Shown here: positions 51,492-63,511 of the stretch, in pieces
Layout of the letters: the number at the start of each line of letters is the position of its first letter
How positions within the stretch are numbered: position 1 is the stretch's first letter
From: Cyanobacteriota bacterium
GTDB taxonomy: Bacteria; Cyanobacteriota; Cyanobacteriia; PCC-6307; Cyanobiaceae
Assembly: GCA_026389265.1 (NCBI GenBank)
Contig: JAPLIE010000137.1
Location: 1 to 63,511 of the forward strand
Length of the DNA: 63,511 nt
Reading direction: 5' to 3'
The notes under the pieces: generated by a model
What the model was told of the DNA's origin: nothing
Database searches by the model: none
What the model saw: the letters and a program-made list of their open reading frames with translations, nothing else
Position numbers and translations under genes: made by a program

Positions 51492-51592
51492 GGGTGGTGG
51501 GTGCCCCTAGCGGCGGTGGCTGATGGGTGCTCTCAGCATGGCGCCGCGGTCGCGGCAGGGAATGCTGAGGGGAAAGATCCGAAAGGATGACT

Positions 51593-52594
51593 ATGGCCAC
51601 ACCTGAACCCCGACCAGGCCCGCCACCTGTTGGCGTCCGTCCGCCAGGTCTGATCCAGCGGTATCGAGAGGAACTGCAGGCCCGCCACTACGCCCGTCGC
51701 ACAGTTAAAACCTACGAGCAATGGCTGCGGCGGTTTCTGCGGTTTCACCAGCTGCGCCATCCGCGGGAGATGGGCAGCGCGGAGGTGAATGCCTTTCTCA
51801 CGCACCTGGCAGTGGAGGGTCAGGTGAGTGCCTCTACCCAGAACCAGGCCCTGGCGGCGCTGCTGTTTCTGTATAGGGTGCTGCTGGAGCGGGATCTGGA
51901 TCTGGAGGGGGTGGTGCGAGCCCGCAAGCCTCGACGCTTGCCGGTGGTACTGACAGAAGAGGAGGTGCGTTCGGTATTGCAGCGGCTCGAAGGGAGCGAA
52001 GCGTTGGTAGCTGGACTGCTGTATGGAAGTGGGCTGCGATTGATGGAGGCCCTGCGGCTGAGGGTGCATGACCTGGATTTCAACCGGCAGGAACTGACCG
52101 TACGTAACGGAAAGGGCGGAAGTGACAGACGTACAATGCTTCCGAAACGGTTATCGAAGAAGCTGCGAAACCATCTTGAAGAGGTTAGGAGTATACACAA
52201 ACGGGATTTGATGGATGGATGGGGTCAGGTACGACTTCCCTATGCCTTGGCTCGAAAGTATCGGAATGCCGCAACGGAGTGGGGCTGGCAATGGGTGTTT
52301 CCTCAGCATCGGCGCTGGCAGGATCCAACTTCAGAACAACAGGGACGCCATCATCTCGATCCGAGTTTAATTCAGAAATCGGTGCGGAGCGCAGTGCTGG
52401 CAGCTGGCATCAGCAAGCCAGCCAGTTGCCATAGCTTGCGCCATTCGTTTGCTACCCACCTGCTCGAGAGAGGACAGGACATTCGCACGATTCAGGAATT
52501 GATGGGCCACAAGGACCTAAAAACAACAATGATCTATACGCATGTTCTCAATCGCGGGCCAATGGGTGTCGCCAGCCAGGCAGATTTCCTGTAA
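51593..52594 (+). CDS. intI: Integron integrase IntI (tyrosine recombinase)
   Basis: 333 residues from the ATG at 51593 (335 from 51587), as for IntI1. Numbered from 51587, the catalytic set is complete: Arg151 ([10 protein letters not shown]), Lys176, His282 and Arg285 ([10 protein letters not shown]), His308 (MGHKD) and Tyr317 (MIYTHV). The IntI-specific extra block is present at about residues 215-262 ([33 protein letters not shown]), which XerC/D lack. An SD-like AAAGGA precedes 51593 by five bases. It recombines attC with attI. The start is 100 bases from the divergent winged-helix gene; the 3' end faces the array. Confidence 0.95.
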
Positions 52595-52689
52595 AGAAGT
52601 CGAAAAGAGCTTCCGGCGATTCCGGGTCCGTATAAAATCCCCACGTCCCCACCGTACAATCCCCCAGACCCATTGCACCGCATGCCTAT

Positions 52690-52782
52690 TAGAGCAAGCT
52701 TCAGGCCTCCCATCGGCAGCATAGGCCGACAACGGCACCCACCGCAGAACGGATACCGGACCCGCCCATACAGCGTTAGATG
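52690..52782 (+). other. Candidate attI site
   Basis: Between the intI stop (52594) and the first cassette gene (52921) there is one core-like GTTAGAT at 52776-52782 (consensus GTTRRRY), followed by GCACCTAAG, similar in look to the attI1/cassette junction. The crossover would fall after 52776. The left limit is arbitrary. No attC-like palindrome ends here, which favours attI over attC. The rest of 52595-52920 holds no gene that I can support. Confidence 0.55.
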
Positions 52783-52920
52783 CACCTAAGAATGCCTTGG
52801 GCCGCATATAAGAATCGTTTTCTATGCGCTGAGGCAGATGACCCGCTACTCTGAATAGACTGAGCCTTCTAAGCACAAGGTTGTCTTCAGCATAGGCTTA
52901 TCACTCACCAAACGCTTGAC

Positions 52921-54897
52921 ATGGCTAGGCAAATCTCAGTTCAAGTGGCTGACGATCATCTGACGAAACTCGCCACCACTAGGAAGGCAGTTGATGCACT
53001 CTCTGAAATTGTGTGGAATTCACTCGATGCAGACGCTTTGAAAGTAACGGTCAACTTGGTTGAGAACGGCCTTGGCGGCATCGATCGTATAGTGGTAAAA
53101 GATGATGGCAGTGGATTTAGTCCGCTAGAGCTAGATTGTGCCTTCACCAATCTTGGAAATTCTTGGAAAAGACAAGCTAATCGAACTCGGTTTACAGGCA
53201 GGCTACTCCATGGGAAAGAAGGGCAAGGGCGATTTAAAGGACTATCGCTTGGCTTGAACGTATCTTGGAGAACAACTTGGCGAGACCCTTCGACTGAAGA
53301 GCTTCGCAGCCACATCATCTCGATGAACCGAGATAATCCTAAAGTCGCTATTATTGAAGAGATTCAAGATCACTTTCCTGCGCCGGGCACTGAGGTTACG
53401 ATTTCAGATGTAGATCGGAGGTCTTCCTCCTTTACTGATGCTGATAACCAGGAAAGATTCTCCGATACCTTCTCCTTGTACCTTCTTGAGTATCCCTCCG
53501 TATTCATCCGGTATTTGGGAGAGACAGTCGACCCTCAATCGCAAATCTGCTTTAAGCAAGAATATGAGTCATCCTTTGACCATGAGGGCACTTCATACCC
53601 TTGTAGTCTGACAGTTATCGAGTGGTCGACACAGAAACAGCGTGCCTTAATGCTATGTGGGAGTGATGGCTTCACCATGAATCGTGTACCAGCCAGAATT
53701 CAGGCTCCAGGGTTTTCATTTACAGCATATTTAAAATCAGAATTCCTTCGAAGGATAAACGACGAAGGGTTCCTTGATGTTGAAGAACTTCATCCCGGGC
53801 TTAATGATTTACTTGGTCAGACAAGAGAAGCACTAAGATCACATTTTCGTCAAAGGCTAGCGTCATTGGCCACTAGTAAGGTGGATGAATGGAAGCAGAA
53901 CGACATTTACCCATACCAGGACGAACCGACTGATGATATATCTAGGTCTGAGAGGCAAGTTTTTGATATATTGGCACTGAACGTTAGTGAGTTCTCGCCG
54001 GGATTCAATAGCAGTGATGCCAAGATCCAGGCACTTTCTTTTCGTCTGTTGCGTGAAGCCGTAGAAGAAAGCCCTGATGCAGCTCAGCGAATCATTGCCG
54101 AGGTTCTCGATCTTCCTGAGGAGAAACGTGAGCAGTTAGCCAAACTGCTCGATAAAACATCGCTCTCGGCTATCATCAATGCTTCCAAGGAGGTAACTGA
54201 CAGGCTTGATTTTATTCGAGGCCTTGAAGTGCTGGTATTTGAAGACATATCAAAACAGACCGTGCTTGAGCGCAAGCATCTTCATCGCATTCTTGCAAAG
54301 CATACGTGGCTATTTGGCGAGGAGTTTGGACTAAGTGTTGACGATCAATCGCTTAATGCCCTTTTAGAGAAGCATATAGCGCTATTGGAGAGAGAAGAAG
54401 AAGATCACTCGGACGTAACTCGTCTTGACGGTAGCCACGGAATTGTCGATCTAATGCTTTCAAGACGAATTCCCCAGACACGGCCAGAAGAAAGAGAGCA
54501 TTTAGTGATAGAGCTGAAGAGGCCATCACAAAAGCTCACTGAAAAGGTTGTGTCACAGATCAGAAGTTACGCATTTGCCGTAGCGGAAGACGAACGCTTT
54601 AGAGATACTCGAACAACTTGGCACTTCATGGCAGTCTGCAATGAAATGGATGGAGCGGTGCAGCGAATTGCACGCAGTAGAGATAGGCCGTATGGGCTAA
54701 TCCATGATGACCCTGACCTCAATCTAAAGATATGGGTTAAGACTTGGGCTCAGGTGCTTGAGCCTTGCAGAGGAAGGCTCCATTTCTATCAGCAGAGTCT
54801 TGAGTATGAAGCCGGTCGTGACGATGCCTTGAGTTATCTAAATGAATTGTATGCTGACTATCTTCCAGTGAGTCTGCACACAGTGCGGGCTGCTTGA
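52921..54897 (+). CDS. GHKL ATPase fused to Shedu/DUF4263-like PD-(D/E)XK nuclease domain
   Basis: 658 residues. An N-terminal GHKL (Hsp90/MutL/MORC-type) ATPase shows the N box ALSEIVWNSLDADAL (Glu29, Asn33), DDGSGF at 61-66 and a GKEGQGRFKG lid near 98-107. The middle is helical. The C-terminal part (about 450-600) has HTWLFGEEF at 462-470, IVD with Asp510 and IELKRP with Glu531 and Lys533, a PD-(D/E)XK pattern like the nuclease domain of Shedu (DUF4263). It fills the first cassette; the stop is six bases before attC. An ATP-dependent anti-phage or DNA-damage role is inference. Confidence 0.7.
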   Translation: MARQISVQVADDHLTKLATTRKAVDALSEIVWNSLDADALKVTVNLVENGLGGIDRIVVKDDGSGFSPLELDCAFTNLGNSWKRQANRTRFTGRLLHGKEGQGRFKGLSLGLNVSWRTTWRDPSTEELRSHIISMNRDNPKVAIIEEIQDHFPAPGTEVTISDVDRRSSSFTDADNQERFSDTFSLYLLEYPSVFIRYLGETVDPQSQICFKQEYESSFDHEGTSYPCSLTVIEWSTQKQRALMLCGSDGFTMNRVPARIQAPGFSFTAYLKSEFLRRINDEGFLDVEELHPGLNDLLGQTREALRSHFRQRLASLATSKVDEWKQNDIYPYQDEPTDDISRSERQVFDILALNVSEFSPGFNSSDAKIQALSFRLLREAVEESPDAAQRIIAEVLDLPEEKREQLAKLLDKTSLSAIINASKEVTDRLDFIRGLEVLVFEDISKQTVLERKHLHRILAKHTWLFGEEFGLSVDDQSLNALLEKHIALLEREEEDHSDVTRLDGSHGIVDLMLSRRIPQTRPEEREHLVIELKRPSQKLTEKVVSQIRSYAFAVAEDERFRDTRTTWHFMAVCNEMDGAVQRIARSRDRPYGLIHDDPDLNLKIWVKTWAQVLEPCRGRLHFYQQSLEYEAGRDDALSYLNELYADYLPVSLHTVRAA

Positions 54898-54902
54898 TAG
54901 GC

Positions 54903-54992
54903 ATCTAACACTGCCATTCACCTGAGCCGCCACCGCATGGCTGCCTGCTTGATGCACCACCATCTGCGGCCAGGTGATGGCAAACATTAGGT
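54903..54992 (+). repeat. attC site 1 (family A)
   Basis: R'' ATCTAAC at 54903-54909 and R' ATTAGGT at 54986-54992 (consensus GTTRRRY, first base changed). The left arm TGCCAT-T-CACCTG-A-GCC pairs with GGCCAGGTGATGGCA, leaving two extrahelical bases on the left side spaced by six pairs, the known attC geometry. It orients the cassette on the plus strand, downstream of the ATPase-nuclease gene. Confidence 0.8.
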
Positions 54993-55037
54993 GGAAGAGG
55001 CGAATCCTGCAGTGCACCGGCTTTTGGTACCCAGCCC

Positions 55038-55066
55038 TTGACTTTGGCGATGCCTATGAGTATCAT
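55038..55066 (+). promoter_or_regulatory. Sigma-70-type promoter before the methyltransferase
   Basis: TTGACT at 55038-55043 and TATCAT at 55061-55066 are separated by 17 bases, close to consensus. The -10 lies 30 bases before the ATG of the methyltransferase. It would let this cassette be expressed without the integron promoter, as expected for a restriction-modification cassette. Confidence 0.55.
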
Positions 55067-55095
55067 CGCTTAAGACAGTGAAGTGTTAGCAGAGC

Positions 55096-56523
55096 ATGGG
55101 AATTCGCGCAATGCGCCTCAATGCAAAGATGAGCCAAGCCGAATTAGCACAGAGAGCTGGTATTAGTCTTTTGACTTTAAAGAAATGGGAGCGAGGGCTC
55201 GAATGTGCAAGATGCACGGCTCTTGAAAAGATAAGCACACTTCTTGAGGTTAATTACAAGGAGCTAGAGGAAGGTCAACGCGTTGTTGAAAATGCTGCTA
55301 CTCCTGGAGAGGGCTATACAACTGCCGTTTCCGATAGAGGAATTAAAATAAGTCGCCAAGAGCAGCCTCCCGAAGGCAAACAATATGTTGTGGACTTTTA
55401 TTGCGGTGCGGGTGGTCTTTCCTATGGATTTGAAATGACGGAACAGTTTGTTACGGTGTGCGGAATTGATCTACTTAAAGATCGTGTTCAGACGTTCACT
55501 GCAAATCATAAGTATGCGAATGGCTTGGTTGGAGATATTCGTGATTTTGATGTTACGGAGCTAACAGGAGGCTTTCGTGAAGTTGATGTAGTTTTGGGAG
55601 GACCACCTTGTCAAGGATTTTCCTCTATCCGTCCTTTTCGAAACTTGACCGAAGGCGATCCAAGAAACTCGCTAGCCGAACATTTCGTTTTGCTCACATC
55701 TAAAATTAAGCCAAGGTGGTTTGTTTTTGAGAACGTTGTAGGGATTCTCACTCATGAGCGAGGCAATAAGCTAAGAGCTTTAATAAATGGCTTCCGCGAA
55801 GCAGGCTATCTATGCGAGTGGAGAGTTCTGAATAGTGGACTCTTCGGAATACCACAGAATCGCGAGCGCGTAGTTATAATTGGCAACCGTGATTGCATAC
55901 CTATCTCATGGCCAATTCCAACTCATTTATATGAATTCAAAAGTATGGCCGGTGCTAGGCCCGAAGTTATTCGGCCACTACCACCATTGTTTTCACAAAG
56001 CCTACCAAGGTCCGTGTCTCTGATAGAGGCCATAAGTGATTTGCCGAATGTGGCATCAGGCGAGGAAAAGAAAGATTACACTTGTGCCCCTAAGAATGGC
56101 TATCAACTACTAATGAGAGAAGGTGATCCGAATCTATGCTTGCATAGATCTACCAAGCATTCTGCAAAAATGCTTAATATCATACGTCATGCAGGCTCAA
56201 ACATTTACGCCCTTCCCGCTGGCATGGTCAAGTCTGGTTTTAGTTCATGCTATAGCCGTCTCGATGCTGATAAGCCAAGTACGACAATTACGGTAAACTT
56301 TGTACATCCCGCCTCAAACAGATGCATACACCCTTTTCAAGATAGAGCACTTACGCCTAGAGAAGGAGCTCGGATTCAGAGCTTTCCGGACAAATTCTTT
56401 TTTGCAGGGACGACAGCGCAGATTGTTAAGCAGATTGGCAATGCAGTACCACCGCTACTGGGGAAGACAATAGCTAATTCAGTAATTGAAAGTGAGTTGT
56501 TGTTAGGCGCTCAAGCGGCTTGA
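55096..56523 (+). CDS. DNA cytosine-C5 methyltransferase with N-terminal HTH
   Basis: 475 residues. Residues 1-60 are an XRE-type helix-turn-helix (MSQAELAQRAGISLLTLKKWERG). From about residue 97 the C5-methyltransferase motifs follow in order: I (VVDFYCGAGGLSYGF), IV (GGPPCQGFS, catalytic Cys172), VI (FENV), VIII (PQNRERVVIIG), and IX-X (IVKQIGNAVPPLLGKTIA). The HTH suggests it represses its own promoter, as for M.SsoII- or M.EcoRII-like enzymes. It converges with, and overlaps by 13 bases, the putative endonuclease gene. Confidence 0.93.
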   Translation: MGIRAMRLNAKMSQAELAQRAGISLLTLKKWERGLECARCTALEKISTLLEVNYKELEEGQRVVENAATPGEGYTTAVSDRGIKISRQEQPPEGKQYVVDFYCGAGGLSYGFEMTEQFVTVCGIDLLKDRVQTFTANHKYANGLVGDIRDFDVTELTGGFREVDVVLGGPPCQGFSSIRPFRNLTEGDPRNSLAEHFVLLTSKIKPRWFVFENVVGILTHERGNKLRALINGFREAGYLCEWRVLNSGLFGIPQNRERVVIIGNRDCIPISWPIPTHLYEFKSMAGARPEVIRPLPPLFSQSLPRSVSLIEAISDLPNVASGEEKKDYTCAPKNGYQLLMREGDPNLCLHRSTKHSAKMLNIIRHAGSNIYALPAGMVKSGFSSCYSRLDADKPSTTITVNFVHPASNRCIHPFQDRALTPREGARIQSFPDKFFFAGTTAQIVKQIGNAVPPLLGKTIANSVIESELLLGAQAA

Positions 56524-57158
56524 AAAGCCCCTAGGTAATCTGAGTATAGTTTACCCTTGGGGGACATTGGCAAAAAATCAGGAGCTATAAAGACTGGCTG
56601 CAATGCTGAGATTCCAGCAGCATTTATTACGGGTGTCTTTCCGCTATCGCCCTCAGTATTGCTGAAATTGAAATGCCTTTCGTCGAGCACACCAACGCGT
56701 ACCTCCCATATACGAGGTATACTTCCTCGCTTATCCTTCCCTCTTTCATATCTACCATCTGAATGGGTCAAGACATACCGAATCGTTAGGTGAGGACCTG
56801 GCTTGATTAAGTGCCCCTTGGGCTTATTGGCTTCTAGGGCAACTTTGATTTCAACATCCGATGCATCGCCATCATTTGCTAGCAAATCGGGATAGGTATG
56901 AGGAAGATTAGATCTAAACTTTCCTCCAGAAGATTTTACGATGCCTCCTCGATACAGATTCCCAATGATTGCCGATAGGTTAGCGAGCTCAACAAGCTCT
57001 GACAGCCGCTCACCGCCAGCATCCAAGAGGCGTTCATCAATAGAAGAAAGAATATCATCGACATATGAAACAGCTCCTGTTATCATTCCGACCGTGAGGC
57101 CTAATTCACTAAGCGCCGAAGAGGGCCGAGTCTTGGTTTTGTATGTAAACTCAGGCAT
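56511..57158 (-). CDS. Putative type II restriction endonuclease
   Basis: 215 residues. A PD-(D/E)XK-like pattern is visible: Tyr-Pro-Asp at 89-91, then DVEIKVALEANKPKGH with Glu103 and Lys105. Later segments (HLTIRYVLTHSD, RIWEVRVGVLDERHFN) look like core beta strands. The call rests on this motif plus position: directly after a controller gene and convergent with a C5-methyltransferase. The start is eight bases after the controller stop. The recognition site is unknown. Confidence 0.7.
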   Translation of the reverse strand: MPEFTYKTKTRPSSALSELGLTVGMITGAVSYVDDILSSIDERLLDAGGERLSELVELANLSAIIGNLYRGGIVKSSGGKFRSNLPHTYPDLLANDGDASDVEIKVALEANKPKGHLIKPGPHLTIRYVLTHSDGRYERGKDKRGSIPRIWEVRVGVLDERHFNFSNTEGDSGKTPVINAAGISALQPVFIAPDFLPMSPKGKLYSDYLGAFQAA

Positions 57159-57166
57159 ATTGACAG

Positions 57167-57385
57167 CTATTCAAAGTCGACCAGGAGTGCTGACGGGGGG
57201 ACCTCCAGCGCCTCGGCTACTGCAAGAAGGTTAATGAACCCAATATTTCGTTCTCCGCGTTCAACGCCTCCTATGTAAGTGCGATGTAAACAGCATTTGT
57301 CGGCCAGCTCTTCTTGAGAAATTTCCCTAGTGAGTCTGATGGCTCTAATTCGAGATCCCAACAGGACTAATGCCTCGCGCTCCAT
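57167..57385 (-). CDS. Restriction-modification controller (C) protein
   Basis: 72 residues, a compact XRE helix-turn-helix: LLGSRIRAIRLTREISQEELA, then RTYIGGVERGERNIGFINLLAVAEALEVPPSALL. Size and sequence match C proteins such as C.AhdI or C.PvuII, which dimerise, activate their own C-R operon and delay endonuclease expression after entry into a new host. The stop is eight bases before the endonuclease start. A C-box-like operator lies just upstream. Confidence 0.85.
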   Translation of the reverse strand: MEREALVLLGSRIRAIRLTREISQEELADKCCLHRTYIGGVERGERNIGFINLLAVAEALEVPPSALLVDFE

Positions 57386-57407
57386 CGGCCTAGCATCGCG
57401 GAATGAT

Positions 57408-57433
57408 GACCATATGTCGACAGACTATGAGTA
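57408..57433 (-). promoter_or_regulatory. Candidate C-box operator of the controller gene
   Basis: Two palindromes, GACCATATGTC (57408-57418) and GACTATGAGTA (57423-57433, with ACT-N3-AGT perfect), have centres 15 bases apart. This matches the GACTNNNAGTC-type C-boxes that C proteins bind as two dimers. The sites lie 23-48 bases before the controller ATG, the normal position for such autoregulated promoters. Confidence 0.6.
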
Positions 57434-57470
57434 GCATTAGAATCGGCTGTGATGCCAGCCAGCATTCTCC

Positions 57471-57554
57471 ACCTAACATCCAAATGCAGAAGACGGGAGC
57501 GACAGGTATTGGCTATGCCTAAAACATTGCCCGCTTCTGATTGGGGCGTTAGGC
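57471..57554 (+). repeat. attC site 2 (family B)
   Basis: R'' ACCTAAC at 57471-57477 and R' GTTAGGC at 57548-57554 match the consensus exactly. The left arm CAAAT-G-CAGAAG-A-CGGG pairs with CCCGCTTCTGATTGG, with two extrahelical bases on the left side. It closes the restriction-modification cassette. Confidence 0.9.
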
Positions 57555-57784
57555 GGCCTTGCGCCAAGGCCGTCGCGTAAAGATTAGCTGCATTACTCAA
57601 TAAGTCCATTTTGTTCACTGCGAACAGACAAAAAAAGGGGGGGGCGGTAATTTTAGCGCAAGCCCTCATTCTGATTAAGGCATCAACTGTGACCTATTCT
57701 CAGGGATTTGATGACATAAACTCAGTAGGCCCTAATGGCTACTGGAGCAATGTGCGCCGGAATGGCTCCGTTCGGAGAGTAAAG

Positions 57785-58207
57785 ATGCAGCGCATGATAG
57801 CTGCTAGTTTATTGACTTCATTAATTATTGTTGGAGCATCATTCCCGGCTCTAGCGGCTCACTGGGGAGATTTTCGCGACGACGGCATCCAAGACCTTGG
57901 AAATGGACGTAAGGTGCGGGTTTATCAAGCTATTTTATGGGGCATCCCTTGGGGGCATAGCTGGGAAGATGCCTGCGCAAAGCAGCCTGCAAACATCAAC
58001 GGTGTTCATTTCGATCGTCCAACTGCGTGTGTAAAATCTAGCATATTACAACCCATTTCGGCCATCCTTGCAGGAATTAGCGTGGTTGGTTTAGTGTTTC
58101 CACCTGTAGGCGTCGCGGCTGCTGTAGGGAGCGTCGGGACATCCGCCCTTGATCTTAGTGGAGCTGGTGCACTCAATATGTGGGGCATATTCTATGTAAA
58201 CCAATAG
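57785..58207 (+). CDS. Small exported protein of unknown function
   Basis: 140 residues from the ATG at 57785, which has a good SD (GGAGAG, eight bases upstream). A signal peptide is clear (MQRMIAASLLTSLIIVGASFPALAA). The mature part has two cysteines (DACAKQPAN, TACVKS) that may pair and an Ala/Gly/Val-rich hydrophobic C-terminus. It is the only gene of the third cassette. The frame is open upstream to 57611, but that part crosses an A/G homopolymer and looks non-coding. No family is recognised. Confidence 0.75.
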   Translation: MQRMIAASLLTSLIIVGASFPALAAHWGDFRDDGIQDLGNGRKVRVYQAILWGIPWGHSWEDACAKQPANINGVHFDRPTACVKSSILQPISAILAGISVVGLVFPPVGVAAAVGSVGTSALDLSGAGALNMWGIFYVNQ

Positions 58208-58267: not shown

Positions 58268-58352
58268 GCCTAACATCAAGATACAGAAGTCGGGAGCGGA
58301 GGGGATTGCCTATGCTTAGGGTTCCGCCCGCTTCTGATCTTGAGCGTTAGGC
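58268..58352 (+). repeat. attC site 3 (family B)
   Basis: R'' GCCTAAC at 58268-58274 and R' GTTAGGC at 58346-58352 both match consensus. The left arm TCAAGAT-A-CAGAAG-T-CGGG pairs perfectly with CCCGCTTCTGATCTTGA, with extrahelical A and T. It is very similar to attC 2 and 5. Confidence 0.92.
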
Positions 58353-63190: not shown

Positions 63191-63434
63191 TTTTCTTCTT
63201 TGTCAGATAACCAGTAAACAATATGATGACTCTAATGCTTTATCGCTAAACGAATCGGACTTCCTTTCTGGCAGTCTCAGGCAAGACAGTTTCATTCGCA
63301 TCGGCAAGCTCTTTACTGCCAATGAGTCTCTCATAGCAGGAGTCGCTGGCCATCTTAAGTCTGCTAAGACTGGAGAAGCCATCGCACATCTTGTTGAAAT
63401 GCTATCGGCATGCATTCAAGATGACACCTTCTAA
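63123..63434 (+). pseudogene. PemK/MazF-like toxin, N-terminally truncated
   Basis: The C-terminal three quarters of a MazF/PemK-type endoribonuclease are visible: HPALVLAG, DFLLCQITSKQ, LNESDFLSGSLRQDSFIRIGKLFTANES and GHLKSAKTGEAIAHL. The usual first ~25 residues (Gly-Asp-Val and Pro-Phe-Pro-Phe part) are absent, and the frame runs into the antitoxin ORF in another phase. An internal deletion joining antitoxin and toxin is likely. The TAA stop is formed inside the R'' box of the next attC. Confidence 0.7.
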
Positions 63435-63511
63435 CATCCAGATACAGAAGACGGGGGCTGAGGCTGGGTCCTATGCCCAGATCTAGACCCGCTTCTGATC
63501 TGGAGCGTTAG
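63429..63511 (+). repeat. attC site 5 (family B), cut by the window end
   Basis: R''-like TTCTAAC at 63429-63435; R' begins GTTAG at 63507 and continues outside. The left arm TCCAGAT-A-CAGAAG-A-CGGG pairs with CCCGCTTCTGATCTGGA, with two extrahelical A bases. It closes the toxin-antitoxin cassette and shows that the array continues. Confidence 0.88.

Follow-up and report, generated by a model that had tools for sequence, protein, structure and literature searches.

Can one integron cassette carry a whole type II restriction-modification (RM) system together with the means to control it, and is the gene in the place of the restriction enzyme really a nuclease when no family library recognises it? 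Contig JAPLIE010000137.1 of a Cyanobacteriota bacterium (family Cyanobiaceae; assembly GCA_026389265.1) raises both questions: within the 63,511 nucleotides analysed as a whole, hereafter the window, a reading of the letters alone had proposed that a cassette at 54987..57548 (plus strand) holds a complete type II RM system made up of a methyltransferase (M), a putative endonuclease (R) and a controller protein (C). That proposal is now supported by homology, a predicted fold, a conserved gene neighbourhood, conserved C-boxes and the presence of the cassette between other flanks in a second genome, and we regard a type II RM system in a single integron cassette as highly probable. At the level of sequence, the gene families, the convergent order of M against R and C, the C-box, the attC ends and the copy in a second strain identify a complete C-controlled RM cassette.

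Three genes and their relatives

The plus-strand gene M (55096..56523) encodes a C5-cytosine DNA methyltransferase of 475 amino acids (aa; PF00145, E 5.9e-62; PADLOC MTase_II, E 1.3e-95), and residues 3-56 (55102..55263, plus strand) form an N-terminal helix-turn-helix (HTH) domain (HTH_3, E 3.9e-8); the matches to HTH_3 and DNA_methylase lie in the same protein, as expected if M has an HTH of its own. The positions that we take to be the methyltransferase motifs PPC, ENV and QxRxR are invariant in all nine aligned sequences, the window included, and with these catalytic motifs intact M stands as a separate methyltransferase, the only match in its own genome at E <= 1e-5. Its best solved bacterial relative, M.HaeIII, is distant (E 1.3e-26), and relatives in the plasmid records listed (25 of 75) and in 12 of 12 phage records carry generic names only; these relatives do not point to a recognition sequence. 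R and C lie on the minus strand, as the sequence-only reading had it, and the ends of M and R overlap by 13 bases (56511-56523).

R (56511..57158, minus strand; 215 aa) was matched at E <= 1 by none of the models of Pfam, NCBIfam, PADLOC and PHROGs, and a single-sequence search of solved structures gave no match up to E 10, to PvuII or any other chain; an eight-row profile of R gave two insignificant matches to solved structures (E 0.89 and 6.4), neither of them NaeI. The assignment of R to the PD-(D/E)XK-type restriction endonucleases comes instead from an AlphaFold2 model (mean pLDDT, the predicted local distance difference test score, 87.9), its structural match to NaeI, and the residues that are invariant in 12 sequences. 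In Foldseek the top match of the model was NaeI (E 4.7e-4, probability 1.0, TM-score 0.45) and EcoRV was second; three NaeI chains were the only ones at E <= 0.001, and unrelated proteins appeared from E 0.08 onward. VIA-align likewise placed NaeI first (Z 9.0 over 150 residues, root-mean-square deviation 3.6), followed by SwaI (7.1), DpnI (6.9) and SfiI (6.3), and all 50 of the rows shown are restriction enzymes, among them EcoRV, BglI, HincII and PvuII. The likeness to NaeI covers NaeI residues 12-168/169 at 10-12% identity, with no sequence homology in the solved-structure search that would make R a member of the NaeI family; the alignment ends at residue 169 of a 304-residue chain, and R is too short for a further domain of the kind found at the C-terminal end of NaeI.

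E57, D91, E103 and K105 are kept in all 12 intact R sequences, the window's included, and the last three of these fall in the motif PD...EIK (D91 to K105; 56844..56888, minus strand); catalytic roles for the four residues would fit the modelled fold. The model and the conservation support R as a nuclease that folds like restriction enzymes and keeps the presumed catalytic residues, and the earlier label of putative endonuclease holds despite the empty family searches: far from being unlike any nuclease, R has a predicted fold like that of NaeI.

The third gene, C (57167..57385, minus strand; 72 aa), matches PADLOC Control_protein (E 8.3e-20) and has the solved controllers C.BclI (E 7.4e-14), C.AhdI (E 8.3e-14) and C.Esp1396I (E 1e-7) as homologs, which confirms the controller named in the sequence-only reading. 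It lies upstream of R and runs in the same direction, the arrangement of a C-controlled RM system. Four residues at the DNA interface of C.Esp1396I have been mutated (PMC4041747), and C keeps three of them, T36, Y37 and R46, with N52 in the place of S52 if an offset of 3 is assumed.

A scan of a collection of species genomes with R, which detects close relatives only, returned seven loci, from Cyanobium (L002), Acidobacteria (L003), Deltaproteobacteria (L004), Gammaproteobacteria (L005), Acidovorax (L006), Pseudomonadales (L007) and an unplaced bacterium (L008). Further relatives lie on a Psychrobacter plasmid (L009), which is named in none of the papers of the literature library searched, on a viral contig (L013), in a genome of the window's class (L015) and in a genome of the class of L006 (L019 and L029, one locus). 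L010 (taken by its coordinates as the L002 genome), L014, L016, L017 and L018 repeat counted loci and were not counted, L028 and L030 belong to L015, and we excluded L012, in which R is broken, and L031, which has two nucleases that are distant relatives. In every one of the 12 distinct loci with an intact R, the window included, an M of the same family adjoins it; the gene set is not a chance association because it recurs in distant bacteria.

In nine of the 12 loci (the window, L002-L008 and L015) M and R converge and the N-terminal HTH region is present on M, the HTH being recognised by profile in the window only, by alignment in L002-L008 and by eye in L015. The other three (L009, L013 and L029) have M divergent from a fusion of C and R, and by eye their M has no recognisable HTH ahead of the methyltransferase domain, although in L029 the longest M open reading frame (ORF) adds about 43 residues. 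Convergent order and an HTH on M are thereby perfectly associated across the 12 loci, though one split in the tree of the family may account for it. Among the nine convergent loci C is a separate gene in six and is fused to R in two (L004 and L015), and with L009, L013 and L029 the fusion occurs in five of 12.

Cassette boundaries and movement

At both ends, 54987 and 57548, the cassette stops at the crossover point of an attC site; evidence for these limits comes also from the match to L002 and the bases that differ next to the junctions. The site of the preceding cassette (54903..54992, plus strand) has the 3' core ATTAGGT, one base off the consensus, and its arms have a complementarity score of 12 compared with 11, 16 and 14 at three other sites; the site of the RM cassette itself (57471..57554, plus strand) has the full RYYYAAC...GTTRRRY form, which we take to be the attC consensus. 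Bottom strands of the sites at 54903, 57471 and 58268 fold better than shuffled sequences (z -3.2, -2.9 and -6.2, respectively). The integron integrase gene intI (51587..52594, plus strand; TIGR02249, E 2e-136, 454.5 bits against a cut-off of 265) lies upstream and ends 2.4 kb before the cassette, which with attC on both sides and an integrase nearby has the marks of an integron cassette. GC content is 47-49% in the 2-kb blocks from 52001 to 58000 and 53-75%, mostly above 60%, in the other blocks listed. The genome with the near-identical second copy is placed in the same genus as the window's, and the host is probably a Cyanobium-like, apparently freshwater cyanobacterium. Integron integrases are common in that genus, occurring in 28 of 42 genomes at E <= 1e-60. 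The integrase gene is on the cassette strand with the array 3' of it, an arrangement that is reversed in class 1 integrons.

The second copy of the cassette lies on a contig of Cyanobium sp. Cruz CV13-4-11 (L002) and is 98.7% identical over 2573 bp, with M, R and C 97-100% identical. The match runs from 54987 to 57557, 9 bases beyond the downstream G/TT crossover, and outside the G/TT junctions the flanks differ: after the downstream crossover L002 reads TTCTGC where the window reads TTAGGC, the ORFs next to the cassette are unlike those in the window, and the 8.4 kb of L002 contain nothing that matches the GHKL gene in front of the window's cassette. The same ends with other neighbours are what cassette mobility would leave, and a near-identical cassette between other flanks therefore indicates that the RM unit moves as an integron cassette, as integrase-driven transfer of a single cassette predicts. 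R was found in two of 299 genomes sampled from the order and in two of 386 of a phylum sample (the window's own genome counted in each, the other genome of the phylum sample being distant), and in two of 369 genomes sampled from the class of the Acidovorax relative, that genome counted. Around the relatives outside Cyanobium a strict attC pattern found no site, an uninformative result because the same pattern also misses the sites of L002.

Sites resembling the attC at 58268-58352 also occur on other contigs of the same genome, and at 63431-63511 in the window; among 11 listed matches to that site eight have E < 1e-9, and three, the query included, are in the window. Since similar sites lie on several contigs, the assembly has probably split an array that is larger than the part seen here, unless the cassettes form loose clusters. 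The cassette directly upstream holds a 1977-bp gene, so the RM cassette, at about 2.6 kb, is no outlier beside that neighbour.

Operators and control

Upstream of C lies a C-box (OL + OR; 57404..57435, minus strand) that ends 18 bp before the start of C, compared with 18-22 bp at the chosen starts in five other loci. When six loci were aligned on the box, the mean majority fraction was 0.90 inside and 0.51 and 0.48 in the flanks, a contrast favoured by the way in which the box was chosen. A matrix built from the five non-Cyanobium boxes scores the window's at 40.2 bits, with the next best site in the 63.5 kb at 10.7; L015 has a box as seen by eye. This conservation points to the C-box as the operator upstream of C.

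For M, a predicted promoter, TTGACT - 17 bp - TATCAT (55038..55066, plus strand), has 10 of 12 matches, and GTATCAT is also found upstream of M in L003, L004, L005 and L030. A C-box-like half-site (55053..55063, minus strand), the candidate OM operator, overlaps its -10 element; it is the second best in the 63.5-kb window, and of 1000 stretches of 130 bp drawn at random from the window two reach its score. We scored the half-sites upstream of M by leave-one-out, comparing each with 1000 stretches of 130 bp taken at random from its own source, and the fractions scoring as high as the best half-site were 0.002 for the window, 0.031 for L003, 0.022 for L004, 0.016 for L005, 0.034 for L007 and 0.020 for L008, with 0.023 for L002, which as a near copy of the window is not independent. 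In seven of eight loci, the near-duplicate L002 among them, the best half-site ahead of M ranks above 96.6% or more of the random stretches, and the exception (L006, 0.583) is the sole locus without C. The pattern is cleanest in the window, L003, L004 and L005; in L008 the site covers the start codon, and in L007 it is on the other strand. In L030, from the genome of L015, TATCAT has next to it a similar TATAGTCATCAT stretch, which is on the opposite strand (by eye, unscored).

The half-site over the -10 of M suggests control like that of Esp1396I, in which C would activate C-R and repress M. In Esp1396I, C-R and M converge and C acts at OM as a repressor of M (PMC4041747; PMC11736437). The cassette has the same convergent layout, C-boxes ahead of C and a homologous C, and its candidate half-site at the M promoter would be the counterpart of OM; the cassette differs in the N-terminal HTH of M, in an R of an unlisted family and in its integron-cassette setting. 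The HTH recalls the SsoII, Ecl18kI and EcoRII type, where a methyltransferase with such a domain can repress its own gene; autorepression of this kind is described as a 'second type' of regulation beside C-protein control (PMC3874152), with SsoII as a case of it (PMC3978073). There the regulator is the methyltransferase, whereas the cassette has a C protein and a C-box as well. The recognition part of C and the aligned region of the HTH of M differ, and for that reason the two probably read different sites. C-R fusions of the NsoJS138I and PvuII type, one such fusion having been shown to do both jobs (PMC3850674), have counterparts in the fused relatives, but in the window C and R are separate genes and R has no sequence match to the solved chains, PvuII included.

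Put together as a mechanism, M would be made at once from its own promoter when the cassette arrives, and would methylate a cytosine in the target. C and R would start low, transcription of C-R in all likelihood needing C at the C-box, and accumulating C would switch C-R on. We lean towards C turning M down by binding at the half-site over the -10, as in Esp1396I, and the HTH of M is probably a second brake on M. R would then cut incoming unmethylated DNA at a cytosine-containing site. The internal promoters, a feature also claimed in the sequence-only reading, are predictions; with them the cassette would be independent of the integron promoter and of its place in the array.

Alternatives, surroundings and meaning

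Several observations weigh against a complete, C-controlled RM system. For R, a VIA-align Z of 9.0 is little above the 7-8 that is common for models without a true relative, and the Foldseek TM-scores are modest, NaeI's included. Among the named entries of a library of viral structures R matches a phage ParB/Sulfiredoxin protein best (E 4.6e-7), with no named restriction enzyme at a good E and a single 'restriction endonuclease' row at E 0.064; one unnamed partial match in that library is 40% identical to R. C was not found in one of the nine convergent loci (L006) and is therefore not essential to the family. The 32-bp C-box was first picked by eye from regions upstream of C; the promoter search gave two matches as good as that of M where shuffled sequences gave a mean of 3.5, and the match alone proves nothing. 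That C acts at the M promoter is a prediction, and the HTH of M could bind the half-site there in place of C. M also shows no sign of strong constraint against the L002 copy (12 nonsynonymous and five synonymous changes; pN/pS, the ratio of nonsynonymous to synonymous changes per site, 0.73 on few sites), with too few changes to conclude.

Among other explanations, the one that survives best gives the cassette a different main selected role, addiction (self-maintenance of the cassette and the array) and not phage defence, which we think possible but doubtful. If the cassette were lost, methylation would be diluted and R could become lethal. RM systems have been discussed as stabilisers of super-integrons (PMC4176335), post-segregational killing by RM systems has been reviewed (PMC3874152), and the L002 cassette lies among small ORFs that resemble toxin-antitoxin genes by eye (no family search). 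The rarity of the cassette (two of 299 genomes of the order, its own included) is, on the other hand, no show of strong self-maintenance. By analogy, post-segregational killing that stabilises the array is plausible, and the two roles can hold together: tentatively, a cassette that defends the cell may also hold itself and its array neighbours in place through lethality on loss.

A decaying cassette, with M still methylating as an orphan and the window's R inactive, seems to us unlikely. RM systems often lose R activity, and residue 176 of R, an alanine in 11 of 11 relatives, is a proline unique to the window among the 12 sequences; A176P is a change from L002 to the window, inside the conserved, near-invariant stretch GDSGKTAVIN and adjoining a loop (168-172) of low model confidence. 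This counts among the points against the RM reading as well, as the window's copy of R may be impaired or weak. Against decay, E57, D91, E103 and K105 are intact and the R frame is open; the pN/pS of R against L002 is 0.49 on five changes (three nonsynonymous, two synonymous), too few to judge, and C has no nonsynonymous and one synonymous change.

Another candidate for the nuclease that works with M is the 658-aa GHKL ATPase of the preceding cassette, in which case the 215-aa gene would do something else; this is very improbable and was rejected. The ATPase resembles the BbrUII/HgiDII restriction enzymes (E 7.3e-16; 57.8 bits, far below the curated cut-off of 550) and has a weak C-terminal nuclease-like match, but R lies next to M in each of the 12 distinct loci and itself has a predicted restriction-enzyme fold, the 8.4 kb of L002 that were searched have no GHKL match beside an M, R and C that are 97-100% identical, and in the two records opened of 42 GHKL-bearing plasmid records the neighbours are conjugation genes in one and a type ISP restriction enzyme in the other.

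The GHKL gene (52921..54897, plus strand; HATPase_c_3, E 1.2e-15), with a C-terminal nuclease-like motif (HSDR_N_2, E 0.018, below the cut-off), stands outside the RM system. No methyltransferase gene lies inside its cassette, which is possibly a second defence cassette. Six GHKL peptide patterns matched no stretch of viral contigs, although one PHROG does match the protein. Other GHKL genes resembling restriction enzymes lie near the RM systems of L003 (5830-6069 and 6183-7178) and L005 (4000-5190), with E 9.6e-20 and 2.6e-7 to PADLOC REase_II models; those of L003 adjoin a second C5-methyltransferase match, and the surroundings of both loci are likely defence islands. The cassette after the RM cassette encodes, at 57788-58207, a protein of 139 aa, counted from the ATG, whose start looks by eye like a signal peptide; none of its family matches is significant (Pfam E 0.17 at best).

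The two loci excluded from the counts have features of their own. L012, the Streptococcus suis phage phi-SsuHCJ31_comEC, has a frameshifted R relative beside a gene annotated R.SnaBI, and its methyltransferase, annotated SinI, is 54.6% identical to the second methyltransferase of L031. L031, the Peribacillus simplex plasmid pSHB26, has two tandem C5 methyltransferases, one belonging to the family of M (47%), and next to them a pair of related, SnaBI-like nucleases that the R profile also finds (E 8e-10 and 1e-5 in a set of seven proteins); it looks like a system of two R and two M, perhaps for an asymmetric site.

RM systems on integrons have already been reported (PMC3874152, PMC4176335), and defence genes including RM are found in integron cassettes of Xanthomonas (PMC12444791). 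Compared with those chromosomal-integron cassettes, the present one is in a cyanobacterium and has convergent genes and predicted promoters of its own. RM on integrons, C-R fusions and Esp1396I-type control are all known, and the nuclease family is outside the libraries searched. A C protein together with an HTH methyltransferase in one system is possibly a new mix of controls; that the combination is undescribed is weakly indicated by a limited reading of the literature on the point.

Tentatively, and somewhat more readily than we would accept addiction as the main role, we see an RM family that lies outside the libraries and is under dual regulation, with C acting on C-R and on M and an HTH on M as well, the HTH being tied to the convergent layout and absent from the divergent one with its C-R fusion; the form that travels in cyanobacteria would be a self-expressed integron cassette that both defends and anchors the array. 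As four libraries have no model for the nuclease, annotation that relies on them would find M and C and miss R. The mobile RM cassette, with its identified nuclease, candidate operators and near-identical natural copy in a second strain, is a testable system, and it offers a clean setting in which to ask how an RM system becomes established once an integrase has inserted it and whether such cassettes keep integron arrays together.

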